Of a stretch of DNA of 32,757 bases, positions 8,642-27,441 are shown in pieces. Under the pieces are notes generated by a model. It did no database searches. It saw only the letters and a list, made by a program, of their open reading frames with translations, and had not been told where the DNA came from. The position numbers and the translations under genes were made by a program. Positions within the stretch are counted from its first letter, which is position 1. Each line of letters begins with the position of its first letter. Source of the DNA: a virus; the IMG/VR virus record IMGVR_UViG_3300031645_000007, positions 1-32,757 of that record. The stretch is one strand, 5' to 3'.

Positions 8642-8947
8642 ATGGCAGTAAAAGTACATTGCAGTAAGTGCGGTGTGTTTATCAAGAACGCAGAACAAGC
8701 CGAAATACAGAAACTTACGGGCAAGGAGATTTGCCCTGAGTGCAACGCAAGGATACAGGCTGTTTTTAAGGAGCTTGATACTTTTGAAAAGAAGTACAAG
8801 GAAGACATCAAGAAACTCGATGTGAAGTCAAGGCAGGACATGGCATCGTTCGAGAAAGCTATTGTTCGCTTACGGAATGACGGGCAGGGATTATTTACCA
8901 CCATAAAGGCCGAACTGAAATCAATCACGGAGAACTTGCTTGAATGA
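8642..8947 (+). CDS. Zinc-ribbon coiled-coil protein
   Basis: The 101-residue product has two CxxC pairs, C7-C10 and C31-C34, forming a likely zinc ribbon, then a long charged helix (about residues 38-98; FKELDTFEKKYKEDIKKLD). A ribosome site GGAGA precedes the ATG. The stop overlaps the start of the methyltransferase gene (ATGA, 8944-8947), linking it to the sugar module. Zinc binding is predicted from the cysteines. It is one of several small zinc-ribbon genes in this window; the partner is unknown. Confidence 0.65.
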   Translation: MAVKVHCSKCGVFIKNAEQAEIQKLTGKEICPECNARIQAVFKELDTFEKKYKEDIKKLDVKSRQDMASFEKAIVRLRNDGQGLFTTIKAELKSITENLLE

Positions 8948-10122
8948 AATGTAGAATATGTGGAAATGAGAAATTAGTTGGCATCTTAGACTTTGGGTTT
9001 CATCCCCCAAGCGATGCCTTCTTAACCAAAGACCAATTATCTCAAGCCGAGGCCGTCTATCCCCTTGCTTTGTGGTGGTGTCCTGACTGTACACTTGGAC
9101 AGTTAAGCTATGTCGTAGATCCGGAGACATTGTTCAACGAGTCCTACCCTTATGCCACAGGGGTGAATCCTGGCGGTGTGAAGCATTTTACTGAGTTTTC
9201 CTTGGACGTTGTTTCTAAGTACGAATTAGGCAATTCTGATTTGGTAGTTGATATAGGAAGTAATGACGGTACGTTACTTAAAGGTTTTCAAGAACAGGGC
9301 TGTCAGGTGGCGGGAGTTGAACCTTGCAGACATCTTGCTCAAATTGCAAAGGAGCGGGGCATCCTAACCTTAAATACCTTTTTCAGCAAGGAAAATGTTA
9401 AAAAGAGGTTCGATACTGAGTCAGCTACGGTCATTACTGCCACGAACGTATTTGCCCATATTGACGATATTCATGGAGTTATGGATGGGGTCGATTATTT
9501 ACTGAAAAGGTATGGGGTTTTCATAGTGGAAGCTCCTGCCTTTAGCGACATGGTAAAGTTCAATCAATTTGACCAGATTTACCATGAGCATTTGTCTTAC
9601 CTGTCTCCTGACGCAATGGCAACAATCGCCCGAATGCACGGTATGAGCATGACATACGAACACAACGAAATGCACGGGGGATCTATCCGATATTTTCTGA
9701 CAAAAGGGTTCGGGAGAACGTGCATAACGGACCCTCCAATGACGCTGAAAGAATTAATGGACTTCGCTGAGAGGGTGGAGGCTAATCGAGAGAAGGTAAG
9801 GACCACCCTTCAAAGCTTAAAGGAACAAGGGAACAGGATAGTGGGCGTGTCGGCTCCGGCAAAGGGCAACACTCTTTTGAATTATTATGGGATAGGCGCT
9901 GAAACCCTTGATTATCTTACGGACATAAGCCCCTATAAAATAGGACTGTATTCCCCCGGGCAACACTTGGAGGTCAAGACTGACGAACAATTCATAAAAG
10001 ACGCTCCTGAGTATGCCTTACTATTAGCCTGTAATTTCAAGAAGAACATCTTAAAGGCAGTTAGGAAAAAGGGTTTTAGGGGCAAGTTTATAATCCCATA
10101 CCCTGAAATGACGGTGGAATGA
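8944..10122 (+). CDS. Sugar C-methyltransferase (NovU/TylCIII type)
   Basis: The 392-residue product has the full architecture of deoxysugar C-methyltransferases: an N-terminal zinc domain (C3, C6, C46, C49), a class I SAM-binding core with VVDIGSNDGTLL (101-112), the YHEHLSYLS motif (213-221) that carries catalytic Tyr/His residues in characterised members, GGSIRYF (245-251), and the C-terminal SAPAKGNTLLNYYGI (303-317). These enzymes methylate carbon 3 of NDP-4-keto-6-deoxysugars. Here the natural substrate would be the product of the GDP-mannose 4,6-dehydratase two genes downstream, or a derivative of it; that pairing is inference. The length is normal and no key residue is missing. Start overlaps the preceding stop. 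Confidence 0.9.
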   Translation: MKCRICGNEKLVGILDFGFHPPSDAFLTKDQLSQAEAVYPLALWWCPDCTLGQLSYVVDPETLFNESYPYATGVNPGGVKHFTEFSLDVVSKYELGNSDLVVDIGSNDGTLLKGFQEQGCQVAGVEPCRHLAQIAKERGILTLNTFFSKENVKKRFDTESATVITATNVFAHIDDIHGVMDGVDYLLKRYGVFIVEAPAFSDMVKFNQFDQIYHEHLSYLSPDAMATIARMHGMSMTYEHNEMHGGSIRYFLTKGFGRTCITDPPMTLKELMDFAERVEANREKVRTTLQSLKEQGNRIVGVSAPAKGNTLLNYYGIGAETLDYLTDISPYKIGLYSPGQHLEVKTDEQFIKDAPEYALLLACNFKKNILKAVRKKGFRGKFIIPYPEMTVE

Positions 10123-10123
10123 A

Positions 10124-10288
10124 ATGCAACGAATATGCCCAATATGTAAAGCCCCTTTAATCAGGGATGGAAAGCCAGAAAATGCTTGCGTTATGCATAC
10201 AAGCGAAAAAACGTGTCCTAAAAAATATCTTATAAAATGGATTCATAATTCTTGTGCCAAAGAAAATAACATTGGGGTTCCGGGATGA
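10124..10288 (+). CDS. Small cysteine-rich, zinc-binding-like protein (54 aa)
   Basis: A 54-codon frame fills the gap between two enzyme genes. The ATG at 10124 lies one base after the upstream stop and the TGA overlaps the next ATG (10285-10288). The product begins [17 protein letters not shown] and has C5, C8, C22, H25, C31 and C44, enough for a small zinc site. No family is recognised. Perfect packing between its neighbours and the Cys spacing argue that it is real. Confidence 0.6.
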
Positions 10289-11256
10289 AACGAGCCTTAG
10301 TAACCGGAATTACGGGTCAGGACGGAGCCTATCTTGCCGAGCTACTCTTAGAAAAAGGGTACGAGGTGCATGGCATTATCCGCAGGGCCAGTACGTTTAA
10401 CACCGGACGGATAGACCATATCATAAATGACTTGAAGCTGTCTCATGGGGATATTACGGATGGATGTTTTATTGCTTCTACAATTCTAAAGACGGATTTT
10501 GACGAGGTTTACCATTTGGCTGCACAAAGCCACGTTCGGGTAAGCTTCGATAATCCTGTTTTCACGAACGATGTAACGGGAACCGGAACGTCAATTATTC
10601 TTGAATCCATTAGGATGAGTGGCAATAAGAATACGCGGTTTTACTTTGCGGGATCAAGCGAGATGTTTGGGAACTCCCCCTCCCCCCAAAGAGAAGACAC
10701 TCCAATGATCCCGCAAAGCCCGTATGGATGTGCTAAATGCTACGGGTATTGGATGACAAGGAATTACCGCGAAGGATATGGAATGCATTGCAGTACGGGG
10801 ATCTTGTTCAACCATGAATCACCGAGGCGTGGGGAGACTTTTGTAACCCGGAAAATAAGCCGGGCAGCGGCAAGGATTAAATTAGGGCTTCAGGATGAGC
10901 TTTATCTTGGCAACATAGAATCCTTCAGGGATTGGGGTTATGCCCCTGACTATGTGGAAGCTATGTGGATGATGTTGCAACAGGACAAACCGGATGATTA
11001 TGTGATTGCAACCGGGGAAGCTCATTCAGTAAAGGAGTTTTTAGAGAAAACCTTTGAGCATTTTGGGTTAGACTACAGGGATTGGGTAAAGATTGACCCT
11101 AAATACTTTAGGCCAACAGAGGTGAATTATTTATTGGGGGATTCAACCAAGGCACAGAAAGACTTGGGCTGGAAACCAAGGGTAACTTTCAATGAACTGG
11201 TAGATATAATGGCAAAGGACGCCTATGAAAATTGCTCACATCGTCAACCCATTTGA
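10285..11256 (+). CDS. gmd: GDP-mannose 4,6-dehydratase
   Basis: The 323-residue product is a short-chain dehydrogenase with the NADP-binding GITGQDG (G8-x2-G11-x2-G14), the active-site SSEMFG (124-129, Glu126), YxxxK at Y147/K151, [16 protein letters not shown] (175-190), [16 protein letters not shown] (213-228) and the C-terminal [11 protein letters not shown] (276-286). It converts GDP-mannose to GDP-4-keto-6-deoxymannose, the precursor of GDP-fucose, rhamnose, perosamine and C-methylated sugars. It is slightly shorter than typical 350-370 residue enzymes, but all motifs are present. Its start overlaps the small Cys protein gene and its end overlaps the next gene by 32 bases. Confidence 0.93.
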
Positions 11257-12088
11257 CGCCAAGCCACCGTCAGACCTTGTGACGGCACAGGCTATCACGT
11301 TCAAGACAATGCTCTGGGCAAAGAAGTTTGCAAAGGAAACATGCCCCGACCTTGACGTTGAACAGTATGTGACGGGGTATGAATGGGATGAGCCAGCGTT
11401 TCCGCCAGGATTCAGGAAAGCCAAGTATCTCGACAGGGAAATACGGGATTTATACGAATTACCCGACATTGGCAAGCATCTTCCTTTATTCAGGGACATA
11501 CTTGACAGGCTGTATGAAGCTTGCCCTGACGCTGATTACATGATTCAGACCAATGCCGACATCGGGCTAATGCCCCACTTTTATACATCCATTAAGAGAT
11601 TCATTGAACAGGGGTACGATTCGTTTATCATTAACAAAAGGATTATCAGCCGACACTACAAGAAAATAGAAGAAATCCCCGAAATGTATTGTGACTTAGG
11701 GACCAACCATAACGGGTACGACTGCTTTGTGTTCAGGCGAGAGGTTTACCCGAAGTTCCAGAACGGTGACATCTGTATGGGCATACCGTGGTCTGAGGCT
11801 GCCCTGGCTGCAAGTATGGTTGCATACTCAAGGGATTGTATAGTCTTCAAGCAACCTCACCTCACGTTCCATATAGGGGACGAGAGATCGTGGATGCAAA
11901 AACATGAGTACAGGAAGCACAACACGGAACAGTTTGCCAAATGCCTTATGAAGATAGGCAGGGAAGTACCGGAAGCGCTTAAGCATCCGCTAATGAACTA
12001 TCAGGTCCAGAAACTTAAATTAGAGCTTCAGCCTCATTATAGTAAAAACTGTCACGACTTATGTGATTCAACAGCTTTGTTGTTTTAA
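11225..12088 (+). CDS. Putative glycosyltransferase-like protein
   Basis: The 287-residue product begins [18 protein letters not shown]. Motifs suggestive of a GT-A glycosyltransferase are [16 protein letters not shown] (105-120, Asp112), [13 protein letters not shown] (163-175) and [10 protein letters not shown] (214-223). The position at the end of the sugar module, overlapping gmd by 32 bases, fits a transferase that uses the new nucleotide sugar. The typical DxD is not present in a canonical form. It could be a non-catalytic relative or another sugar-modifying protein. A small hairpin CAACA-GCTT-TGTTG sits just before its stop, and an intrinsic terminator follows at 12143. Confidence 0.45.
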
Positions 12089-12142
12089 AAAAAATAGGGT
12101 TCTGAAAAATCCGGCCAGGTTTTTTGGACGCAAGAATAAATT

Positions 12143-12181
12143 AAGGGATTATGGGTGCACCCACTCGTAGTCCCTTTTTTT
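12143..12181 (+). terminator. Rho-independent terminator after the sugar module
   Basis: AAGGGATTA (12143-12151) pairs with TAGTCCCTT (12168-12176) over nine positions, one of them a G-T pair. The loop itself contains the palindrome GGGTGCACCC (12153-12162). A T-run follows from 12175 to 12181. This is a classic intrinsic terminator on the + strand and the clearest transcription boundary in the window. The 114-base gap around it is otherwise free of genes. Confidence 0.85.
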
Positions 12182-12202
12182 ATTGCCCTGTGAAAGGAAA
12201 GC

Positions 12203-12541
12203 ATGGAACGGACACACGGAAGCTGGGGAGAGAAAACGAACATCTTTCAGAACGATTTATGCGAAGTAAGCATACTTGATCTTATTCCAAAACAACGCTG
12301 TTCTTGGCATCTACATAAAAGTAAGTATAACCTGTTTTATGTGCTTGAAGGCGAGTTATTCATAAAGACAGACAAGGGGATATCAGAGTTAAAGAAAGGA
12401 GAGTATTTCACAACGCACCCTGGAGAACCGCATGAGTTCCAAACAGCCATAGCATCCGCCAAGATTATCGAGATCATGTATGTGCAATATGATTCGCAAG
12501 ATATTGAACGCGAAAAACTTGGTGGGGCAATAGAGGAATAA
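12203..12541 (+). CDS. Cupin-fold protein, sugar-modification type
   Basis: The 112-residue product is a single cupin domain. Metal-binding positions of motif 1 are visible in SWHLHKSKYNLFYVLEGE (H36, H38) and of motif 2 in KKGEYFTTHPGEPHEFQ (H77). The N-terminal GSWGEKTNIFQND resembles the start of cupins related to type II mannose-6-phosphate isomerase or to polysaccharide-biosynthesis cupins. It could epimerise or isomerise a sugar nucleotide or only bind a sugar. It lies after the terminator but directly before portal (three-base gap), so it is probably expressed with the head genes. Ribosome site AAAGGAAAG precedes the ATG. Confidence 0.75.
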   Translation: MERTHGSWGEKTNIFQNDLCEVSILDLIPKQRCSWHLHKSKYNLFYVLEGELFIKTDKGISELKKGEYFTTHPGEPHEFQTAIASAKIIEIMYVQYDSQDIEREKLGGAIEE

Positions 12542-12544
12542 CTT

Positions 12545-14494
12545 ATGAGCAAGCGAGATGATGACGTTTTAAAGTTTTTTCTTGCCAGGTACAAAGACCA
12601 ATACGACAGGAACAGCTATGCCAGGTCGAACTACGATGAAGACTTGACGTATTATCGAGGCCATAGAAACGCAGGGGATTATCCGCTTGTTTACAACGAG
12701 AACTTCAACCGGATCTTGCCTATAATCCATACCATTCTTTCCCGGTTTATGGATCAGTTATACCAGGGCGGAAACATTATATCCGTCAAGGCAAGACATC
12801 GCCGGGACATGCAAAAGGTAAAAGCGGTTGAAGGGGTCTTAAACTATCAAATGGATTCCCTGAACGATGTGGACGTTCATGGCGGGTCTTACCTGACCAT
12901 GTTTAAATGGTTTTTCAATACATTGACGTTCGGTAAGGGAATAGCGAAATGCTATTGGCGAAAAGAAGAAAGAATAGGACCAAGACGGGTGGCGTTACCC
13001 GTACCGAACTTTGATCGGTTTGGCAATTTTCAGGGCATGGATGTCATAGACCACGTTAGCCAAGAAATGCAGACAGTGTATGACGGGCCCTATGTTGAGA
13101 TCCTTCACAATAAACTCTTTGTTCCTCATCCCGAATACAAAGACATTCAGCAAATGCCCCAATGCTTTATCGTTTACAAACGGTCTTTGGATTATTGCAA
13201 GAGACAGGCAGACAAGGGGATTTACAAAAACCTGAACAAGATTGGGTGGGGAGAAACAGGCGGGGCGGGGGATTGGGAAAGAGATTCAAAGGAAGCTACC
13301 CAAAAAAGCATTTCTATGGAAGGAGTGACAGACATTCCAGACGGCAATCAAGATAGAAAGTCCCCTGAGATAGACATAGTGGAAGCTTACGGAAAATGCA
13401 TTCTGGAGGATACGCCTTATGAGGTCGGAAGTGGGTACAAGCTAAAAGGAAAAGAAGAGGAGGTTATTGCCCATATCGGGAATTACAAAGCCTTATTGTC
13501 TCTCCAGAAAGCCCAGTACGGGGTAAGGCCATTGTTTGATATGGGTTGCTATTATCATCCTGAGTTGTATTGGGATCTGGGCATGGTGACGCTCACTAAG
13601 GGCATTCAAGAACAAGTGAATAACCTTGGAAACCTGAGAATCCAAAACGCTATGATGCAGATAAACCAAATGCTTTTGGTGAACAACGAATCCAACATTG
13701 ATCCTGCGGCCTTGACCTGGAAACCGTTTGGAATTGTCCCGGTAGATGACATGGACGATGTGAAACCCCTTGTTGTTCCTGATTACAATTCCGGTGTTTT
13801 TATGGAGCAGGAAAGTTTTTACAAGAACACCATCCAGGACATTATGGGCATGTACGACTACGGCATGGGCCAAACGCCTGAAAGACAAGAGAGGGTTGGG
13901 GTCGTGTACGGCATTCAGGCAATGGGAGAAGCCAGAAGCAAGTTGCTTTTAATGTCAATGGATTATTTGGGGATTCGGCCTTTGCTCAAGTACATGATGA
14001 TTTTAAACACGTTTCATCTTCCAAGCGGGTTTGAGTACAGGATCGGAGCGACAGACCAACAGGAATTTGGGCAGATATTTGGCGAGGACATTCATTCCGA
14101 CTTTGATTTTTCCGCGCGGTACACGGGGATGGAGCCTGCCCTTGGAAAACAAGCCCGTATGGACAGGTTAGTGCAATTAGCCGGTATGTGGAAAGACAAC
14201 CCGTGGATTAATCAGTACCAATGGAACAAGGTTTTAATGGAGTTAGGGGATATCAGAGAAGCCGAATCCCTCTTGAAAACGCCGGATCAAATGCAACAGG
14301 AAATGCAGCAACAAGTCAAAATGCAGATGATGGCGGAACAACAGAAAAAGAACTACGAAACCCAAGGAAAGCTGAATGTCAGCAAACAGGACTTTAAGGA
14401 AGATGTGGCTTTAAACACACAGGAGTTCGGACACGACATGGCTTTAGAAGCTTTTAAAGCGGAAGCGGAGAAAGATGCGCAACCTGCTAAATGA
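12545..14494 (+). CDS. Portal protein
   Basis: The 649-residue product fits a P22-like portal, which forms the dodecameric ring for DNA entry and exit at one capsid vertex. Length, position before a scaffold-like gene and capsid gene, and sequence style support this: an N-terminal helical region (KFFLARYKDQYDRNSYAR), a wing-like middle with beta segments, the long helical stem region (QESFYKNTIQDIMGMYDYGMG, about 420-440), and a C-terminal helix very rich in Gln and Met (MQQEMQQQVKMQMMAEQQ, about 582-599) that may form the barrel or coiled coil. No single invariant motif proves it. It overlaps the next gene by 20 bases. Confidence 0.85.
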   Translation: MSKRDDDVLKFFLARYKDQYDRNSYARSNYDEDLTYYRGHRNAGDYPLVYNENFNRILPIIHTILSRFMDQLYQGGNIISVKARHRRDMQKVKAVEGVLNYQMDSLNDVDVHGGSYLTMFKWFFNTLTFGKGIAKCYWRKEERIGPRRVALPVPNFDRFGNFQGMDVIDHVSQEMQTVYDGPYVEILHNKLFVPHPEYKDIQQMPQCFIVYKRSLDYCKRQADKGIYKNLNKIGWGETGGAGDWERDSKEATQKSISMEGVTDIPDGNQDRKSPEIDIVEAYGKCILEDTPYEVGSGYKLKGKEEEVIAHIGNYKALLSLQKAQYGVRPLFDMGCYYHPELYWDLGMVTLTKGIQEQVNNLGNLRIQNAMMQINQMLLVNNESNIDPAALTWKPFGIVPVDDMDDVKPLVVPDYNSGVFMEQESFYKNTIQDIMGMYDYGMGQTPERQERVGVVYGIQAMGEARSKLLLMSMDYLGIRPLLKYMMILNTFHLPSGFEYRIGATDQQEFGQIFGEDIHSDFDFSARYTGMEPALGKQARMDRLVQLAGMWKDNPWINQYQWNKVLMELGDIREAESLLKTPDQMQQEMQQQVKMQMMAEQQKKNYETQGKLNVSKQDFKEDVALNTQEFGHDMALEAFKAEAEKDAQPAK

Positions 14495-15632: not shown

Positions 15633-16880
15633 ATGGCAACTTATACTTCAACATGGATGATGACCCGTGCAGACGCCTTTGACCAGGGCGGGTTTTCGCG
15701 GGACATTGTTGGGGACACCCCGTATGGGGTCGTAACCGGCACGGAAAAAAGGGACGTATCCGATGTGTTGGATCTTTTGGCACTTGCGGATACCCCGTTT
15801 ATTAACACAATTAGCTGGGGCCCGGAAACCGGCGGAACCACGATTGAGTGGATGTCCGAGGATTTAGGCAAGGGGTATGTTCAAACCGCAGCCGATATAG
15901 AAACCGGACAGCTTTCTATGGCTATTGGAAGCACTGATGGGATGGACGGATCTGATTCTATGCGTCAGATGGGTGAAGGTGCGATGCTGTATTACTTCGA
16001 CTCTGCCCAGGGTGTTCATGCGATGTTTGCGGTTACTTCGATAACGGCTAATGGCGTGAGTGCTTTCATATCTCAGATCAGTACGGACCATGACGCTTCT
16101 ATCTTTGATAGCGCGGTTTGCTCTATTGTCGCAGATTCCAAAATGTATATCGTTGGTAATGTGGCAAATGAAGGGTCTATGCCACACCCGCCTAATCCGA
16201 GGGACAGGGCGTTGCTCTCTAACGCTTTCACTATTCTGCGAAAAGACGTACAGATCACCGGAACCATGAAGGCCACGGATATGTACATTGTCGGGCGTGA
16301 GGACCGACACCAAGTTCTGATGCGCCTGAAGGAGCTACAGAGAGAACGCGAGAGGCAGGCCTTGTACGCGATAAGCGTGGCAAAGTCTTCTGTTCTCGCA
16401 GGGCAGATGAATGGCGTGCTTGGATTCCTTGGGCAGCAATCCGGATCTCATATTGATAATTCGACTTACACTTTGACGGAAAGTGCTGTCAATACGGTTG
16501 TTTCCAAGATTTGGGAGAACGGAGGCCGGAACTTGTCTTTCTTTGGTGCGCTTTCTCAGACGGCCAAGTTTACCAGGTGGGACAAGAACCGTATCAGGAT
16601 GCGCCAGAACGATAGAAAGGGCGGGGGTTTGGTAACTTCCTACCTCTGCGAGTCTGGCATCGAGCTTGACCTGCATCCGATGGCAAATGTTCCCACAAAC
16701 ATTGCCTATGTGATCGACACCAGTCGGCCCAAGTTGCGTGCCAAGAAAGGGCGTAAGGCCATCATGGAAAAGCTTGGCAAATTGGGTGACTTCGATTCAT
16801 GGCAGATCCTCTCGGAGTTCTCTTTTGAATTTCCGGGGTACAATCTGGGTCAGCACGGAGCTTTCTGGAAATTAGTTTAA
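15633..16880 (+). CDS. Major capsid protein, SU10/DUF5309-like
   Basis: The 415-residue product resembles the HK97-fold capsid proteins of the DUF5309 (SU10-like) family. Recognisable parts are LLALADTPFINTISWG (about 48-63), the VGNVANEGSMP loop, NAFTILRKDVQITGT (about 193-207), the helical MRLKELQRERERQALYA (about 230-246), and the MNGVLGFL region (about 259-266). Hundreds of copies would form the capsid shell. The ATG follows a strong GGGGAG site. Its family places this phage near podoviruses or metagenomic phages with SU10-type heads. A GC-rich hairpin follows the stop. Confidence 0.85.
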   Translation: MATYTSTWMMTRADAFDQGGFSRDIVGDTPYGVVTGTEKRDVSDVLDLLALADTPFINTISWGPETGGTTIEWMSEDLGKGYVQTAADIETGQLSMAIGSTDGMDGSDSMRQMGEGAMLYYFDSAQGVHAMFAVTSITANGVSAFISQISTDHDASIFDSAVCSIVADSKMYIVGNVANEGSMPHPPNPRDRALLSNAFTILRKDVQITGTMKATDMYIVGREDRHQVLMRLKELQRERERQALYAISVAKSSVLAGQMNGVLGFLGQQSGSHIDNSTYTLTESAVNTVVSKIWENGGRNLSFFGALSQTAKFTRWDKNRIRMRQNDRKGGGLVTSYLCESGIELDLHPMANVPTNIAYVIDTSRPKLRAKKGRKAIMEKLGKLGDFDSWQILSEFSFEFPGYNLGQHGAFWKLV

Positions 16881-16925: not shown

Positions 16926-18173
16926 ATGAGAAAAAAGAAAAAGAAGAAAACTGCTGAGTTTAAAGAGTTTATCGATAAAAGCAAGCAGGTCAAGTACGAG
17001 GACCACAAGGCTTTGCACGGCATAATCTCTAAGGCAAGCTTTGATTTTGTCCACACGATAAACGACCAAACAGTTCAACACTTAGGGATTGAATGGCTTA
17101 ACAATATTGCCCAGAACAAGAGGCTATGGAAAAAACACCATTCTTTAAGGGACTGTCTTCATCTTGGGCAAGGCAAGGCCATCATAGGAATAGGGGCCGG
17201 GAAGTCCTTAGACAATAACTTTGACCAAGTTTGTGACCTTATAAATTGGGACGGCAGAAAGGATTGGGAAGACCGGGACTTTATTTCTATTGTCTGTAAC
17301 CACCAACTAAAGCCCATGTTGGAGAGGGGATGCATACCGGACTTTGTGCTGTTAGTAGATGCAGGGGATAAGGTCTATCACCAGCTTTGCAAGGATATAC
17401 CAAAAATAGCAAAAGGTGTGACGCTTATAACCGGCCTTCAATGCTCCCCTAAAGTTTTAAGTGCGTGGAGCAAGCAAGGCAGAGAGATAGCATTTTACAT
17501 TTCGCCTGCAAAAGCCTTGTTGGAAGAGTTTACCAGGGTAACGGGGAAAAAGGCAAAGTTTCATCAAATAGAGTTGGGCGGCAATGTCCTAAATGGCTGC
17601 TGGATGATAGGCATGGCGGTGTTTCAGTCCAATCTTTTTTTAGGCGTAGGAAACGACCTGTCATTTGAAATAAAGGAAGAGGATAAGGACACGCAGGATG
17701 CTTATTATTCGGACGGGGATTACTCGACTAACGCTCCAAAAACGGGATCTGGGAGAGACGAAGCGAAAAGCAAGAGACGATGGGGCGGGTATTCTATGAC
17801 GAAAAACCCGTTCTTTGCGGAGGGCATAACAAAGGCAAGCGACAGGTACAATATTAATCTCGATATCGTGGGAACGTCTTACACGCTATGGGTTTACAAA
17901 ACATGGCTGGAAACAGCGATAGTGAATTTAGGAACCAATGCCCCTGGAGCACATTATTTTAACTGCTCAGAGGGTGGGATTTTAGGGGTGATGGCAAAGG
18001 ACAATAACCCCGATGCTTTTGAGAAGATAGACAACTGGTTCATGTTAGACGAGAGATGCAAATATTACCACACGGCAATGTTTGAAGATGCCGTAAAAAC
18101 CGTATTAAAATCAAGGGAGGTTTTAAAATGTCACGCGTACAATGCCCCAGCTGCGGCGGGCTTGGTTCTTTAA
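16926..18173 (+). CDS. DUF115/MptE/Maf-like protein
   Basis: The 415-residue product contains the main motifs of the DUF115 domain shared by archaeal MptE and bacterial motility accessory (Maf) glycosyltransferases: GIGAGKSLDNN (88-98), IPDFVLLVDAGD (137-148), GGNVLNGCWMIGMAVF (218-233), FLGVGNDLSFE (238-248) and FNCSEGG (345-351). Maf proteins transfer nonulosonic acids to flagellin; MptE phosphorylates a pterin. Which activity applies here is unknown. The N terminus is a Lys run (RKKKKKK). The gene is directly behind the major capsid gene and leads the second modification module. A weak start site and upstream hairpin suggest low or regulated translation. Confidence 0.8.
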   Translation: MRKKKKKKTAEFKEFIDKSKQVKYEDHKALHGIISKASFDFVHTINDQTVQHLGIEWLNNIAQNKRLWKKHHSLRDCLHLGQGKAIIGIGAGKSLDNNFDQVCDLINWDGRKDWEDRDFISIVCNHQLKPMLERGCIPDFVLLVDAGDKVYHQLCKDIPKIAKGVTLITGLQCSPKVLSAWSKQGREIAFYISPAKALLEEFTRVTGKKAKFHQIELGGNVLNGCWMIGMAVFQSNLFLGVGNDLSFEIKEEDKDTQDAYYSDGDYSTNAPKTGSGRDEAKSKRRWGGYSMTKNPFFAEGITKASDRYNINLDIVGTSYTLWVYKTWLETAIVNLGTNAPGAHYFNCSEGGILGVMAKDNNPDAFEKIDNWFMLDERCKYYHTAMFEDAVKTVLKSREVLKCHAYNAPAAAGLVL

Positions 18174-18355
18174 AGAGAGATGGCTTTTGCAAGAATTGTG
18201 ACCCTGACAAGACCTATAGGTTTGGAGAGAAAGGTAATGACGGTATGGTTGGGGGACGGTCCTTATTGGACAGAGGTTATGAGATAGGGGAAAGCTTTGT
18301 CGAAAAAAACACGGGGTTCGGGTGTATTCAAGACAAGTTCGGGTATGAAAGATGA
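18128..18355 (+). CDS. Zinc-ribbon small protein (75 aa)
   Basis: The 75-residue product begins MSRVQCPSCGGLGSLKRDGF with C6-C9 and C21-C24, a typical zinc ribbon, followed by a Gly-rich, probably loose tail. The start has a strong GGGAGG site at 18115-18120 and lies inside the end of the Maf-like gene (overlap 46 bases). Its stop overlaps the next ATG (18352-18355). Zinc binding is inferred from cysteine spacing. No family beyond that. Confidence 0.6.
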   Translation: MSRVQCPSCGGLGSLKRDGFCKNCDPDKTYRFGEKGNDGMVGGRSLLDRGYEIGESFVEKNTGFGCIQDKFGYER

Positions 18356-18552
18356 CACAAGGGCGATTAAATAGTGGGAAATGCTTAATGTGTGGCAATC
18401 CTCTTATCGTGATAAACGAGTTCCAGGCATGTTCTATATGCACGGAACGTATCAAAAAAGAGCAGTACGAATTAAGCCAAAGAAAACACAGGAAAGGACT
18501 GCGGACTAAAATGAAAGTTCCTGCAGTAAAGGTAACACCACAGGTAATATGA
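18352..18552 (+). CDS. Zinc-ribbon small protein (66 aa)
   Basis: The 66-residue product has C11-C14 and C27-C30, again a zinc-ribbon pattern, then a basic helical tail (KKEQYELSQRKHRKGLRTKMK) that could bind nucleic acid. It is linked by ATGA overlaps to the genes on both sides. With the gene before it, it forms a pair of zinc-ribbon genes. No specific family is recognised. Confidence 0.6.
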   Translation: MTQGRLNSGKCLMCGNPLIVINEFQACSICTERIKKEQYELSQRKHRKGLRTKMKVPAVKVTPQVI

Positions 18553-19229
18553 TTTATAAAAACACAAAAGACATGCCTTCTGCTATGGGATTTACCTTAG
18601 TTACTGGGGACAAAAGAGAAGTTGTAAAATGCCCTGGGCCACGGTTTCATACATGGGACTTGTTACAGCCTGAACCGATTATCGGCGTAAGATATAATAA
18701 GATGGCAGGTTGGGCTATCCTTGAGAAGCAATGCGATATCATTCTGTACTTCAGGCCATACTGTGTCGTTGAGATAGGGGCGGGCGAAAGCTCTAAAGTG
18801 TTGGCTCTCGCGGCAGAAAGAGCAGGCGTGACGTTCCATAGCGTAGACATTAGACCAGAAAAGAAAGCCAAGTATTTTTATAGCCATATTTATCATAACA
18901 TGACCTCAGAAGAGTTTATGGATGATTTTGAGGACAATCCGGCTATTGTTTTAATTGACGGGGACCATCACTATGAAGCGGCCAAGGAAGAGTTTGACTT
19001 CTTTTTCGAGAAGCTTGTTCCGGGCGGTGTGATTTTCATACATGACACTCTCCCTCCTGCGAAAGAGCTTTTAGTTGAACCTGCATGTGGGGACGTTTAC
19101 AAGTTAAGGCAGGAGCTTGAGAAAAGAACTGACGAGATGGATTGTTTTTCATGGCCTTATTCTGCGGACTGGATGGGCCTAACTCAAATAATTAAGAAAG
19201 AGAAAGGCAGGCCATATTGGGAAAAGTAG
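18549..19229 (+). CDS. Methyltransf_24-type SAM methyltransferase
   Basis: The 226-residue product shows the class I methyltransferase fold of the Methyltransf_24 type: VVEIGAGES (73-81, SAM-binding), VTFHSVD (94-100, acidic end of the second strand), VLIDGDHHYEAA (134-145, metal/substrate residues) and PGGVIFIHDT (158-167). Family members include O-methyltransferases acting on sugars and other small molecules. The C terminus SWPYSADWMGLTQIIK (about 201-216) is shared with the next gene, so the two are paralogues. The ATG overlaps the previous stop (18549-18552). Substrate unknown; a sugar hydroxyl is a plausible guess from context. Confidence 0.8.
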   Translation: MIYKNTKDMPSAMGFTLVTGDKREVVKCPGPRFHTWDLLQPEPIIGVRYNKMAGWAILEKQCDIILYFRPYCVVEIGAGESSKVLALAAERAGVTFHSVDIRPEKKAKYFYSHIYHNMTSEEFMDDFEDNPAIVLIDGDHHYEAAKEEFDFFFEKLVPGGVIFIHDTLPPAKELLVEPACGDVYKLRQELEKRTDEMDCFSWPYSADWMGLTQIIKKEKGRPYWEK

Positions 19230-19885
19230 ACGAGACACTCAGGAAGACATTTTTTGAGGGAAAGATAGTATATAAAAAAGACGTTGGGAACAATACAATA
19301 CTTAACATAACTATTCCGTTAGGTTCGTGGGACATATTAGACGCCATTGTTGCCAAGGTTTTAAAGTACGCCAAGGGGGATATTGTAGAGGTAGGCATGG
19401 GGGAATCTTCCATTGTATTAGCCAGCCGTGCAAATGAAGCCGGTGTAAGCCTATACAGTTGCGATCTTCAAATGGGCGGGATGTTTAGGGTGTTTGACAA
19501 CCCGTTATTTAAGAATCATTTTTGCTATATCGAAAGATCAGAACATTTCATGGAAAAATACGAGGGCAGACCGTCCGTTGTGTTTCTTGACGGAGAACAT
19601 AAATACGAAACCGTGAAAAAAGAAGTGGATTTCTTTTTGTCTAAAATGACTCCAAGCGGTGTGATGTTTTTGCATGACACTTTGCCTAAAAACGAAGAAC
19701 AATCTGTTGTTGACGATGAAGGCATTAGCCCTGGAGATGTGTACAGGATAAGACGAGATTTAGAACTAAGCGAAAAAGTTGACTGCTTTACCTGGCCTTA
19801 TTCGGCGCTAAGTATGGGATTAACAATGGTTATAAAAAGGAATATCCGAAGGGAATACTGGTTAAATGAAACTGAAAAATCCTGA
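19217..19885 (+). CDS. Second Methyltransf_24-type methyltransferase (paralogue)
   Basis: The 222-residue product has EVGMGES (58-64), LYSCDL (79-84), VFLDGEHKYETV (122-133) and SGVMFLHDT (147-155), the same order as the previous gene. It also shares the end DVYRIRR...DCFTWPYSALSMGLT. The start is taken as TTG at 19217, after AAAGGCAGG and overlapping the upstream stop by 13 bases, because the first in-frame ATG would remove the SAM-binding motif. The two genes arose by tandem duplication and have diverged strongly at the N terminus, suggesting different substrates or positions of methylation. Confidence 0.8.
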   Translation: MGKVDETLRKTFFEGKIVYKKDVGNNTILNITIPLGSWDILDAIVAKVLKYAKGDIVEVGMGESSIVLASRANEAGVSLYSCDLQMGGMFRVFDNPLFKNHFCYIERSEHFMEKYEGRPSVVFLDGEHKYETVKKEVDFFLSKMTPSGVMFLHDTLPKNEEQSVVDDEGISPGDVYRIRRDLELSEKVDCFTWPYSALSMGLTMVIKRNIRREYWLNETEKS

Positions 19886-20780
19886 AGTAAGACTTGAGAA
19901 CACGAATTTTTGTCAGGCATCTTGCACGATCTGTCCGCGTGAGAAAATGACCCGGAATAAATGCACGATGTCCTTGGAACACTTTAAGCTTTTAGCAAAC
20001 CAAGCCAAAGAATTAGGGGCAGAAACTATCTCTGTGTTTGGCTATGGCGAGCCTTTCATGGACGCAGGGTTAGCTGAGAAGATAGAAGTCTGCACACTGA
20101 ACGGACTGGACACCTTTGTAACGTCAAACGCCGGCTTACTTAATGTCGCCTGGGCAAAGAAAGTATTAAGGGCAGGATTAAAGCATATCAGGTTTTCCGT
20201 TCACGGAATCTCAGCCCCAGACTATGAGAAAGTACATAAAGGACTTCCTTACATGGAGGTCATGTCGAATATATTTAATTTTATCACGATTAATAACGAA
20301 CGGCTTGACCATGCTTGCAAGGTAAGCGTGACGGCAATCCCTCAGAAAGAAGAGCATGTCGAAGGGATCAAGGCTTTCTGGGAAAAGCACGTTGACTACC
20401 TGGAGCTTTGGAAGCCGCATAACTGGACGGATGGCAGGAGCTTTAGGTCGGTCGAGAAGAGAAAGAAGACTTGTGGCAGGCCGTTCAGCGGGCCGGTTCA
20501 AATCCAGGCAGACGGGCAAATGATAGTTTGCTGTTTTGATTTTGATGGCAAGATAGTAGTTGGAAATACACACAACGAATCGATTGAGGACATACTGAAA
20601 GGTGATAAATTCAACGAAATTAGGCGGAAGCACGAAACAGGCGAGCTTAAAGGGCTACCCTGCGAATCGTGTGACCAGCTTAATATCGAAGAGGACAACC
20701 CTTTGCTGTATTCGTCAAGAGATCCTGACAGGAACATAAACACGACAAGCAGCACTAAATTTAAAATACAAGGAGAATAA
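19866..20780 (+). CDS. Radical SAM/SPASM-domain enzyme
   Basis: The 304-residue product carries the radical SAM cluster motif C16-x3-C20-x2-C23, a GYGEPF motif (59-64) equivalent to GGEP, and a SPASM-like C-terminal domain with C203, C222, C223, C266 and C269 (CGRPFSGPVQIQ, VCCFDFDG, GLPCESCDQL). These enzymes use an iron-sulfur cluster to form a radical and modify peptides, sugars or small molecules; the SPASM cysteines usually hold extra clusters. It overlaps the methyltransferase by 20 bases. The usual full SPASM cysteine set may be reduced. Substrate unknown: neither a leader peptide nor a RiPP recognition gene was found nearby. Confidence 0.88.
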   Translation: MKLKNPEVRLENTNFCQASCTICPREKMTRNKCTMSLEHFKLLANQAKELGAETISVFGYGEPFMDAGLAEKIEVCTLNGLDTFVTSNAGLLNVAWAKKVLRAGLKHIRFSVHGISAPDYEKVHKGLPYMEVMSNIFNFITINNERLDHACKVSVTAIPQKEEHVEGIKAFWEKHVDYLELWKPHNWTDGRSFRSVEKRKKTCGRPFSGPVQIQADGQMIVCCFDFDGKIVVGNTHNESIEDILKGDKFNEIRRKHETGELKGLPCESCDQLNIEEDNPLLYSSRDPDRNINTTSSTKFKIQGE

Positions 20781-20782
20781 TT

Positions 20783-21073
20783 ATGGCTATAACGCTGGCC
20801 GAGAATTTCAGGATGGTGGCAGGCGGGCGAAAAATGATGTTCATAACCGTAACCCACGATGAAAGCGATATGGAGTTTACTGCGGCATCAGTTGCTTTGG
20901 ATTATATTGAGCATATTCAAATGGGCTTTCCTTATACGGCAAGCGAGGCCGCCAATCTGTCAACCTTCGCTATGGCGGGGCATTGTTCCATTAACGCTAC
21001 TCACGACACGGTAGCTTACCTTAATGTCCCCAAGACTGGATCAACTCAAAATCTTATAATAGTGGGGTGGTAA
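20783..21073 (+). CDS. Small structural-like protein, tandem paralogue 1
   Basis: The 96-residue product starts MAITLAENFRMVAGGRKMMF and ends STQNLIIVGW. It has alternating hydrophobic residues (FITVTHDE, ASVALDYIEHI) suggesting a small beta sandwich. The next gene encodes a clear paralogue of equal length. A strong AAGGAGAA site precedes the ATG. Position behind the modification module and before the adaptor suggests a head decoration or head-fibre protein; this is inferred. Confidence 0.65.
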   Translation: MAITLAENFRMVAGGRKMMFITVTHDESDMEFTAASVALDYIEHIQMGFPYTASEAANLSTFAMAGHCSINATHDTVAYLNVPKTGSTQNLIIVGW

Positions 21074-21074
21074 T

Positions 21075-21365
21075 ATGGGCCTGGGATTAACAGAAAACTT
21101 TAGAATGGCGGCAGGCGGCAATAAAATGCTGTTCATAACTGTCACTCACGACGGGGCTACTACATCCTTTGAGGCTGCATCGATAGACCTGAGTTACATT
21201 GAACATATTGACCGAAGCTTTCCTTTTATCGGGAGCTTGGTTGCGGACTTGTCTGTGCTTGTTTGTAACGGACATGCTTCTATGGATGCTGCTCATGCTA
21301 CTGTCACGTTTAAAAGTGTTCCTATCGCCGGAGCAACACAAAACCTGATCGTTGTAGGTTGGTAA
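21075..21365 (+). CDS. Small structural-like protein, tandem paralogue 2
   Basis: This 96-residue product matches the previous one along its length: both have ENFRM-AGG-KM-FITVTHD, YIEHI, and the end TQNLI-VGW. The start lies one base after the previous stop (TAATATG). Changes are spread evenly, so the duplication is not recent. Identical length and retention of both copies suggest that both are used, perhaps at two sites in the virion. No family is recognised. Confidence 0.65.
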   Translation: MGLGLTENFRMAAGGNKMLFITVTHDGATTSFEAASIDLSYIEHIDRSFPFIGSLVADLSVLVCNGHASMDAAHATVTFKSVPIAGATQNLIVVGW

Positions 21366-21379
21366 CGGAGGTATAAATC

Positions 21380-22102
21380 ATGTCTTTAACTGTTGCCTCC
21401 GCAGCCCTTGACTTCGCATGGACAGAGTTTGGCGCGGTTGAATATACGGCAGGAACACTTAACACTTTAAGCGCGTGTATTGACCATGTTGGGGGGAAGC
21501 TGAACCGGAACACCCCTTTGAGTGCCTCGACTGTCCCTACTGACACGCAGGTAAGCGAATGGCTCATACGAGCCAAGGAAGAGCTCCAGGAAGCCCGTCA
21601 GTTCACTTGGGGGAAGAGGTATGTCACAGCTACCTTGACGGTAGGAACGTACAGGTATGCCCTTCCTCCTGATTTTTCAGGGGATGCCAGCTTTCGGGAC
21701 ATGACGGATGATAGGAAGATTGGGCTTGTTTCTCCGCATCAGTTTGATGTGCTGTTTCCTGACGTTACGGAATCCGACAACGGCACAATCCTGGTTGGTT
21801 GTATTAGGGGTAGGGAAGTCTGGTTCGGTCCTTCTCCTGATAGTGCCAATGTGATTGAATTGCATTATCAGAGATCCGGGGAAGACATTACGGCCACTGA
21901 TTTTTCCTGGTTGCCGGAACTATCACGGTTTATGATCTGTGATTTTGCGATTGCAGAAGCGTTTGAGGCTCTTCACCAATGGGGAGAAGCGGACAGGTTT
22001 AGGATGAAATGGGAAATCAGTTTAAAGAAAACCTCTATTGCCGATGGTAGAAAAAAATGGTCAGAGATGGGGTTTAGGGCAAGGAGCGTATTTCAAGCAT
22101 AG
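21380..22102 (+). CDS. Head-tail adaptor protein
   Basis: The 240-residue product resembles SU10/P22-type adaptors that bind the portal ring. Features are VSEWLIRAKEELQEARQFTW (about 58-77), TVGTYRYALPPDFSG (about 87-101), VWFGPSPDSANVIELHYQR (about 145-163) and the helical, Arg/Lys-rich end (RFRMKWEISLKKTSIADGRKKW). The order adaptor then nozzle fits. A strong ACGGAGG site precedes the ATG. The call rests on the characteristic central motif and neighbours. Confidence 0.7.
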   Translation: MSLTVASAALDFAWTEFGAVEYTAGTLNTLSACIDHVGGKLNRNTPLSASTVPTDTQVSEWLIRAKEELQEARQFTWGKRYVTATLTVGTYRYALPPDFSGDASFRDMTDDRKIGLVSPHQFDVLFPDVTESDNGTILVGCIRGREVWFGPSPDSANVIELHYQRSGEDITATDFSWLPELSRFMICDFAIAEAFEALHQWGEADRFRMKWEISLKKTSIADGRKKWSEMGFRARSVFQA

Positions 22103-26084: not shown

Positions 26085-27441
26085 ACACTTCAGTTCCGAG
26101 TTTGGACATGAGTTCAGGTGCTTTAAGGGGGGTAGTAGCTCAGTAGAATACTCTCAATCGCCAGAACAGCAGCAAGTATTTCAGGCTCTTATGCCTGTCA
26201 TCAATAAGCTTGCAATGGCTGGAGTTCAAGGAGGGACAACTCAGGCGGCTATGCCTTCTTATCAGCAGTCCTACCAGCAACCGTACAACTACCTCCCCAG
26301 AGGCGGGTTCCCCAGAGGCGGGGATGCGTGGAGGCCACAACCTACTACTGCACAGCAGCTGGTACAGCAAACACAGCAGCCCTACCAGCAACCGTATTCA
26401 CCCTATGCCGGGATTAGTGGGGCAACGCCATTCAACTACTTCCCCAGAGGCGGGAATGCGGTGAGGCCACAACCTACTACTGCACAGCAGCTGGTACAAC
26501 AGACACAGCAGCCAACACAACAAGCACAGCAGCTGGTACAACAGACACAGCAGCCAACACAACAAGCACAGCAGCTGGTACAACAGACACAGCAGCCAAC
26601 ACAACAAGCACAGCAACAGGCAGGTTACAGCATCAATGAAGACAAGGTGACGGCTTGCGGAACATCAAGGTCACAAGCATATTGGGATAGGTTAAGATCC
26701 GGGAACATAGACAATGTTCAATATCAAGATGCCCTTTCAAAGGGAATGATAACCCCGACACCGGCAGATGCAAGCCAGGGAATTGCCCCGTCAGGTCAAC
26801 AGCCCTTATGGGACATCCCGCCTGCTCCTTCAGCGGCAGGGGTAGCCACGGACGTTCCGATGTACGACACTCCCGATGTGTCCTCAATTCAGCCTACAAA
26901 GCAATGGTGGGAATCCTTGTCGCCTGACGTCAAGGCCGGTGCATGGCAACCTTACTTAGAAGGTGCGCAGCAATTAGCCGAAATGCTTGGCAGCTACGGC
27001 CAGGGTTCTCAGATGGGGGGTGCTTCCGGGTCCATGCAGGCAGGGTTGGGCCAATTCTTTAGCGATGCGAGTCAACAGGTAGGCCAAGACCTATGGAAAA
27101 TGTCTTCACCGGGGGCATTTACAGATTACGGAGCCCAAGCACAACAAATGATGCTTCCTTACCAGCAGGCCATTCAGGAACGCCAAACCGATTACGGAAC
27201 TTCTATGAATATGTGGCAACAAGGACAGCAGCAAGCGGCCTTGCCGTTCTCTATTCTACCTGGACTGATGGGCGGGACTTACTCGAATCCCGTTGTGGAC
27301 CAGGGCGGGGGCGGGATGAGCCTTGGTGGGGGAATCTCTGGGGCAACTTCAGGTGCTATGATGGGAAGTGCTGTTCCAGGATTAGGTACTGTTTTAGGTG
27401 GTGTTTTAGGTGGTGTCGGTGGACTATTAGGAGGTAAGTAA
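26077..27441 (+). CDS. Gln-rich repeat protein with glycine-zipper end, probable ejection protein
   Basis: The 454-residue product has a Gln/Pro/Tyr-rich N-terminal half with three exact 14-residue repeats (QQLVQQTQQPTQQA, residues 137-178) and a larger duplicated segment (PRGG...RPQPTTAQQLVQQTQQP). The end (about 410-454) is Gly-rich with SGAMMGSAVPGLGTVLGG and GVLGGVGGLLGGK, a glycine-zipper membrane-insertion pattern. Such low-complexity proteins with zipper ends occur among internal virion proteins that are ejected with DNA and help to make a channel. The start overlaps the GNAT-like gene. Ejection is inferred. Confidence 0.6.
   Translation: MFKHFSSEFGHEFRCFKGGSSSVEYSQSPEQQQVFQALMPVINKLAMAGVQGGTTQAAMPSYQQSYQQPYNYLPRGGFPRGGDAWRPQPTTAQQLVQQTQQPYQQPYSPYAGISGATPFNYFPRGGNAVRPQPTTAQQLVQQTQQPTQQAQQLVQQTQQPTQQAQQLVQQTQQPTQQAQQQAGYSINEDKVTACGTSRSQAYWDRLRSGNIDNVQYQDALSKGMITPTPADASQGIAPSGQQPLWDIPPAPSAAGVATDVPMYDTPDVSSIQPTKQWWESLSPDVKAGAWQPYLEGAQQLAEMLGSYGQGSQMGGASGSMQAGLGQFFSDASQQVGQDLWKMSSPGAFTDYGAQAQQMMLPYQQAIQERQTDYGTSMNMWQQGQQQAALPFSILPGLMGGTYSNPVVDQGGGGMSLGGGISGATSGAMMGSAVPGLGTVLGGVLGGVGGLLGGK
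26485..26610 (+). repeat. Three exact tandem 42-bp repeats
   Basis: Units at 26485-26526, 26527-26568 and 26569-26610 encode QQLVQQTQQPTQQA three times. A longer near-repeat of about 72 bp (26310-26381 and 26442-26513, offset 132 bp) overlaps the first unit. Perfect identity suggests recent slippage or recombination; copy number probably varies between relatives. Confidence 0.95.

Follow-up and report, generated by a model that had tools for sequence, protein, structure and literature searches.

A putative virion-glycosylation cassette in the head operon of phages with an SU10-type capsid protein

We analyzed a 32,757-base viral contig of an uncultured phage from IMG/VR (IMGVR_UViG_3300031645_000007, hereafter the window), in which six intact, overlapping genes on the plus strand (16926-20780) lie between the gene for an SU10-type major capsid protein (MCP) and two small open reading frames (ORFs) that precede the adaptor gene. 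The six genes encode an MptE/Maf-like protein, which is a putative glycosyltransferase, two small zinc-ribbon proteins, two methyltransferases, and a radical SAM enzyme (Table 1). We think that they probably form a virion-glycosylation cassette that is built into the head operon, in which a constant transferase would attach a variable sugar to the capsid or to a decoration protein. Our confidence is high that this is a glycan-related cassette that is tied to the head genes, and it seems fairly likely that the acceptor is a virion protein.

The presence of the six genes is essentially certain. A preliminary description of the window, made from the sequence alone, had reported six overlapping genes between the capsid gene and the two small ORFs, and all of them are there, on the plus strand. 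The MptE-like gene begins after a spacer of 45 nucleotides (nt) behind the MCP gene, and the successive overlaps within the cassette are 46, 4, 4, 13, and 20 nt. The proposed family assignments also held: the DUF115-like protein belongs to PF01973 (now named MptE-like), above the cut-off, both methyltransferases match Methyltransf_24, and the last protein is a radical SAM protein with a C-terminal domain of the SPASM type. The zinc ribbons can be recognized by eye (CxxC...CxxC), but a family search gave nothing above the cut-off. These are not chance ORFs, because the MptE-like and radical SAM genes are intact in all of 14 diverged phages, even though the mean identities of their products are just 40% and 51%, respectively.

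Linkage to the capsid gene

We searched for relatives in 2.9 million viral contigs with four independent anchors (the MptE-like protein, the MCP, the radical SAM enzyme, and the portal protein). Duplicates were merged (L008 with L011, L009 with L010, and L061 with L062), and we required a complete MCP gene with something after it. This left 18 non-redundant contigs, including the window, of which 16 extend far enough to judge the genes beyond the MptE-like gene. The preliminary description had stated that a lack of co-occurrence in relatives would refute its reading, and this refutation did not come about: the MptE-like gene is next after the MCP gene in all 18 contigs, directly in 16 of them and with one extra ORF in between in the other two. 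All nine of the tested records that reach this gene are above the curated cut-off for PF01973. A small cysteine-rich ORF comes after the MptE-like gene in all 16 testable relatives (the copy in L014 is atypical), and homologues of zinc-ribbon protein 1 have the same position in L002, L003, L009, L013, L043, L082, and L084.

The extra ORFs lie at 7292-7651 of L037 and at 6137-6661 of L040. In L040, the extra ORF encodes a LAGLIDADG-like stretch (AYLAGIIDGEGCI), which suggests a homing endonuclease.

Outside this set, tblastn of the MptE-like protein and the MCP against 50,697 phage records gave no match, and the sole match of the radical SAM enzyme in a named phage was remote (Kyanoviridae phage C48C1, 29%). 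As for a bacterial origin, one scan of 84,980 prokaryotic genomes had a single match, an 8-kb contig of a Solincola assembly, whose genes are in the same phage order.

To study inheritance, we compared the between-phage distances gene by gene (Mantel correlations, 12 to 14 contigs). The MptE-like protein is correlated with the MCP (r = 0.86) and with the portal protein (r = 0.82), which are correlated with each other (r = 0.90). In contrast, the MptE-like protein and the radical SAM enzyme are not significantly correlated (r = 0.08), although their genes are just one to four kilobases apart, and the MCP and the radical SAM enzyme give r = 0.23; the narrow range of identities for the radical SAM enzyme (43-63%) makes its correlations noisier. 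For the MptE-like protein and the adaptor, whose gene is beyond the radical SAM gene, r = 0.58. Thus, the inheritance of the MptE-like gene follows that of the head genes, whereas the segment with the radical SAM gene is exchanged among phages; this pattern fits a capsid-matched enzyme with a swappable set of sugars.

The same linkage bears on another explanation, that the enzymes modify a glycan of the host cell surface (to block superinfection, for example) and merely ride in a late operon. Phages do carry such genes, the types of GT2 (family 2) glycosyltransferase, acyltransferase, and methyltransferase that are found in the relatives also serve surface polysaccharides, and the nucleotide-sugar genes upstream would fit as well. 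However, a surface-modifying gene would need neither to follow the capsid gene in all 18 contigs nor to be inherited with it. Also, hydropathy identified no transmembrane segment in the module, and no integrase was found in 14 contigs; these two results fit with late expression from the head operon. We consider the host-surface explanation unlikely.

The MptE/Maf-like protein

The protein from the window scores 45.7 bits against PF01973, where the cut-off is 34.6, and its aspartates D145 and D244 are invariant. Among Maf proteins, this domain resembles the sialyltransferase Cst-II (PMC11339370). The preliminary description had recommended structure prediction and homology search. An AlphaFold2 model built from ten phage sequences (pLDDT 82, pTM 0.84) was compared to solved structures with Foldseek, and the best match of the predicted structure was the Maf flagellin glycosyltransferase of Magnetospirillum (5mu5, 4e-9, 383 columns). 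Second was the archaeal pterin kinase MptE (8sd5, 2.3e-5, about 210-240 columns). In the model, the length of the protein and the extent of the match, which goes beyond the Rossmann core that is common to both, favor Maf over MptE.

Could the protein be a genuine pterin kinase, or another small-molecule enzyme, so that the gene set makes a cofactor or a signal? The Pfam family is named after archaeal MptE, and 8sd5 is the second structural match. However, the phage protein is 415 amino acids long, against about 210-240, and the match to Maf is the better one and covers more columns. Furthermore, DLDG and HxHGD, which we take to be the kinase motifs of MptE, are absent from 14 of 14 sequences. 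We find this explanation quite improbable.

Several points weigh against a Maf-type transferase that acts on the capsid. First, the Foldseek TM-scores against 5mu5 are modest (0.44/0.30), and sequence searches of the PDB with the single protein and with a profile did not find a Maf. Second, no NeuB (nonulosonate synthase) was found in 14 contigs, while the control was positive in 9 of the 14, so the donor would be another than Maf normally uses, unless the host makes the usual one. Third, simple linkage would also give the correlation of 0.86 between the MCP and the MptE-like protein, and the correlation with the portal protein is nearly as high; therefore, their co-inheritance is no proof that the MCP is the acceptor. 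Fourth, the fragmentary contigs do not allow a complete donor pathway to be traced. Because of the modest TM-scores and the missing NeuB, we describe the protein as Maf-like only: by sequence and model it appears to be Maf-like, which is less than a proven Maf, and its neighbor is the capsid gene, not flagellin. Overall, the Maf-like reading of the preliminary description gained support from the structural match, from the co-occurrence with the capsid gene, and from the glycan-tailoring genes that we describe below.

Exchangeable tailoring genes

Phages differ in the genes that separate the radical SAM gene from the zinc ribbons. The window has its pair of Methyltransf_24 genes, and six relatives (L001, L002, L003, L008, L009, and L024) have Methyltransf_23 types. 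L002 also has a hexapeptide acyltransferase and two GT2 glycosyltransferases. Four relatives (L008, L037, L040, and L061) have a sulfotransferase-like gene, of which the copy in L008 matches Sulfotransfer_3 weakly (0.0012), and L012, L014, and L040 have a methyltransferase and a small protein without an assigned function. Across the relatives, these genes matched Hexapep (4.6e-24), Glycos_transf_2 (6.8e-9 and 2.6e-7), and Methyltransf_23/24. Methyltransferase 1 of the window is present in L001 and L002, and methyltransferase 2 has a homologue in L008. Judging by their families, nearly all of these genes are of glycan-tailoring types, and it looks as if a constant transferase is followed, always at the same position, by a segment of tailoring genes that can be swapped.

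A protein of similar appearance (250-330 amino acids) is encoded repeatedly, close to the radical SAM gene or the adaptor gene, in head operons of phages that belong to two unrelated types (L040:11493-12473, L061:13140-14096, L084:17130-18065, and L048:10894-11640). The copies that we tested had no match in Pfam or PHROG; it is possibly another Rossmann-type glycosyltransferase.

The radical SAM gene is present in 14 of the 16 testable relatives. In L082 and L084, the MptE-like gene and the two zinc ribbons are followed directly by small proteins and the adaptor, and we dropped the idea that the radical SAM gene belongs to an invariant core. In the simplest version that has it (L013), the order is MCP, MptE-like protein, two zinc ribbons, radical SAM enzyme, one small protein, and adaptor. 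Because two relatives keep the MptE/Maf-like protein and the zinc ribbons without it, the radical SAM enzyme belongs with the tailoring enzymes that can be exchanged and is not central to the module. The radical-made modification that had been suggested would be one part of what the module does.

The motif CxxxCxxC (CQASCTIC in the window) lies within the Radical_SAM domain and is kept in 14 of 14 relatives, as are four auxiliary cysteines (C203, C222 or C223, C266, and C269). The enzyme had been described as a radical SAM/SPASM protein: it does match both families, but its auxiliary domain has just the four cysteines of the twitch pattern and not the full SPASM set of seven. In a profile search of solved structures, BtrN was the best match (8.6e-18) and aligned over both domains, with the four auxiliary cysteines aligned to residues 164-248 of 4m7s. 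Cytosylglucuronate decarboxylase was next (1.7e-10), and a PqqE-type enzyme was weaker (3.4e-8). BtrN oxidizes an aminocyclitol (PMC9012708, which also defines the twitch domain). The BtrN-type relatives and the glycan-type neighbors suggest that the substrate is a sugar, within a superfamily that is broad.

L014 apparently lacked CxxxCxxC, but this was a start-codon artifact only. Its radical SAM frame (12408-12540) does contain the motif, with no ATG, GTG, or TTG start before it, which may be due to a rare start codon or a sequencing error.

Another way to read these enzymes is that the radical SAM enzyme and the methyltransferases modify a peptide chain of the virion directly, with no sugar involved, either by protein methylation or in the manner of ribosomally synthesized and posttranslationally modified peptides. 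Peptides are the substrates of many SPASM-type enzymes, the radical SAM gene adjoins small conserved proteins, and the PqqE-type enzyme is a relative, if a weaker one. However, the cysteines form the twitch set instead of the full SPASM set, and the nearest relatives of solved structure use sugar-like substrates. The glycosyltransferase, sulfotransferase-like, and acyltransferase genes of the relatives point to glycans, and we did not recognize a precursor leader peptide. Direct modification of a peptide is therefore improbable.

Glycosyltransferases and radical SAM enzymes also serve DNA modification in other phages, so the sugar and radical enzymes might decorate the bases of the phage DNA. 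But the genes accompany those for the head instead of those for replication, and no thymidylate-synthase-type gene was found in 14 contigs, which are incomplete (the control was positive in 9 of the 14). A search of the contigs for Tet_JBP gave no match either, but its control was also silent, so this is uninformative. Although glucosylation of phage DNA is mentioned in the literature (PMC12619734), we give DNA hypermodification a very small chance of being correct.

A model for the cassette

If the cassette glycosylates the virion, then the capsid-linked MptE/Maf-like protein would be a cytoplasmic glycosyltransferase that adds a sugar to a newly made virion protein. The acceptor would most likely be the MCP or the small decoration-like proteins, whose genes come right after the cassette. 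The sugar would be altered by the products of the exchangeable genes between the transferase and the adaptor: in the window, these are the pair of methyltransferases and the twitch-type radical SAM enzyme, which might oxidize or rearrange the sugar in the manner of BtrN and BlsE, and in the relatives, the sulfotransferase-like, acyltransferase, or GT2 genes would have the same role. Related phages would then display different glycans by means of a common attachment enzyme. The zinc ribbons perhaps recruit the transferase to the assembling capsid protein, which is a guess. What we observed is the gene content, conservation, linkage, exchange, and family and fold assignments, whereas the transferase activity, the acceptor, the sugar, and the order of the steps are inferred. 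More tentatively, the full scheme might be a capsid-tied transferase of the Maf type, with a sugar that is diversified by swapping the tailoring segment, including a radical SAM enzyme that acts on the sugar or nucleotide sugar, so that related virions bear interchangeable glycan coats.

The two small paralogues behind the cassette had been called structural. Their position and their 55% identity to each other stand, but family and profile searches gave no match, and a search for similar folds in the PDB gave no significant match (the best for paralogue 1 was a phage tail fiber, E = 0.12). Hence they may be structural, judging from position only, and they are candidates that may be decoration proteins. 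Most relatives have one to three copies of this small beta-rich protein. In L009, two of these genes (13395-13998) are a recent tandem duplication (81% identity in DNA), so the copy number changes.

If the model is correct, virion glycosylation would be ancient and conserved throughout a clade of podovirus-like phages, instead of being a rarity of mycobacteriophages, and it would use flagellin-type transferases and radical chemistry. This would raise the question of why phages have a variable sugar coat: for adhesion to surfaces or mucus, for escape from grazers or antibodies, or for stability. It would also offer new enzymes that glycosylate proteins or modify sugars.

Neighboring genes in the window

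Upstream of the cassette, the window encodes a sugar C-methyltransferase, a GDP-mannose dehydratase, a putative glycosyltransferase, and a cupin (Table 1), which probably supply a branched deoxy-sugar donor. The putative glycosyltransferase had no match in Pfam or in the PDB, including by a profile search of the PDB. The module with the dehydratase and the C-methyltransferase is present in only some relatives; the position of the dehydratase is taken by an epimerase-family (GDP-fucose-synthase-like) gene in L001, L008, and L016. In nearly all relatives the cupin gene is the neighbor of the portal gene, also where the preceding sugar genes are lost, and because of this the cupin may belong to the core of the cassette.

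Elsewhere in the window, a 727-amino-acid ORF (4840-7023) contains nine copies of a 54-bp repeat (5872-6377, 89% match) that encode GSGHTATTITGC-type repeats; it is possibly a beta-helical spike or surface protein. A second repeat array is at 26482-26615.

Table 1. Coordinates of the cassette and of related genes in the window
Feature	Position	Strand	Evidence or remark
Sugar C-methyltransferase type enzyme, probable supporting module	8944..10122	+	Methyltransf_14 1.7e-32, Methyltransf_13 7e-23
GDP-mannose 4,6-dehydratase, probable supporting module	10285..11256	+	TIGR01472 equivalog 9e-138, above cut-off
Putative GT-A-like protein, 287 aa	11225..12088	+	QTNxDI and GxDCFVF motifs conserved (alignment of 5 phages)
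Cupin, mannose-6-phosphate isomerase C-terminal type	12203..12541	+	Cupin_2 4.5e-10, MannoseP_isomer 5.8e-4
SU10-type MCP	15633..16880	+	SU10_MCP PF17236, 3e-37; presumed acceptor or co-inherited neighbor
MptE/Maf-like putative glycosyltransferase, constant gene of module	16926..18173	+	415 aa; PF01973 8.1e-12
Small zinc-ribbon protein 1 (CPxC...CKNC)	18128..18355	+	75 aa; sequence
Small zinc-ribbon protein 2 (CLMC...CSIC, basic tail)	18352..18552	+	66 aa; sequence
Class I methyltransferase 1, variable cargo	18549..19229	+	226 aa; Methyltransf_24 2.9e-14
Class I methyltransferase 2, variable cargo, TTG start	19217..19885	+	222 aa; Methyltransf_24 2.6e-11
Radical SAM enzyme with twitch-type auxiliary Fe-S domain	19866..20780	+	304 aa; Radical_SAM 6.5e-12, SPASM 4.7e-11
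Small beta-rich protein, paralogue 1; candidate decoration protein	20783..21073	+	AlphaFold2 pLDDT 83
Small beta-rich protein, paralogue 2	21075..21365	+	55% identical to paralogue 1
SU10-type adaptor protein, downstream cassette boundary	21380..22102	+	SU10_adaptor PF24175, 7.4e-13

Comparison with other phages and with known systems

Parts of the cassette also occur beyond this clade. In L048 and L052, which have a P22-type portal and a Phage_capsid_3 coat, a relative of the radical SAM enzyme (35-39% identity) is three genes after the MCP. L047 has a radical SAM relative in the same range of identity, an FkbM methyltransferase, and a short DUF115-like gene next to head-tail adaptor genes, and the DUF115-like gene matches the alpha-2,3-sialyltransferase family of PHROG (2.7e-16). 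In L054, a 363-kb phage, an MptE-like gene is immediately before a relative of the radical SAM gene. L057 has a more distant radical SAM relative within a cluster of nucleotide-sugar and glycosyltransferase genes. Since these phages are unrelated, the same pairing arose or moved repeatedly. In both L055 and L057, several radical SAM genes that are distantly related to the one in the window are clustered together.

Three known systems resemble parts of the cassette. First, the phage protein shares its domain family and predicted fold with the Maf flagellin glycosyltransferases (PF01973; 5mu5). It also shares the proposed arrangement, in which a cytoplasmic transferase is encoded beside the self-assembling protein that it would modify. 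Unlike the Maf systems, the phages have a capsid gene as the neighbor, no flagellin, NeuB, or nonulosonate genes were found in them, and the sequence is too diverged for a direct match to a Maf chain. Second, the radical SAM enzyme resembles the twitch-domain enzymes (BtrN, MoaA), with CxxxCxxC and four auxiliary cysteines as in BtrN, but the phage enzyme, at about 300 amino acids, has a conserved C-terminal tail (PLLYSSRD...TSSTKF) that is not seen in the alignment to BtrN. Third, the upstream module (8944-12541) has the enzyme pair of the proposed virenose pathway of Coxiella, a GDP-mannose dehydratase and an NDP-hexose C-methyltransferase (PMC3539893), whereas the pair in the window is phage encoded and patchy among the relatives.

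The preliminary description knew of no phage system with this set of genes. This held in our searches: the 50,697 phage records have no match to the MptE-like protein, and we found no paper that describes the set. However, virion glycosylation by enzymes that are encoded among structural genes is known from mycobacteriophages. In Corndog and other Cluster O phages, an O-methyltransferase and glycosyltransferases are encoded between the portal and protease genes, and it was proposed that they modify the capsid (PMC4351075). Glycans were later shown on the capsid and tail tube of mycobacteriophages (Freeman et al. 2023, cited by PMC12363180 and PMC12619734). Corndog, Che8, and Myrna thus share with the window clade the presence of glycosyltransferase and methyltransferase genes among the structural genes. 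In the cited passages, neither a Maf/MptE-like transferase nor zinc ribbons nor a radical SAM enzyme is described for the mycobacteriophages, which are a different type of phage with different hosts, and their glycans were seen on virions, whereas here glycans are predicted from genes. By this analogy, the cassette would have the same place in the head operon as the mycobacteriophage sets but different enzymes, with a glycosylated virion as its predicted product.

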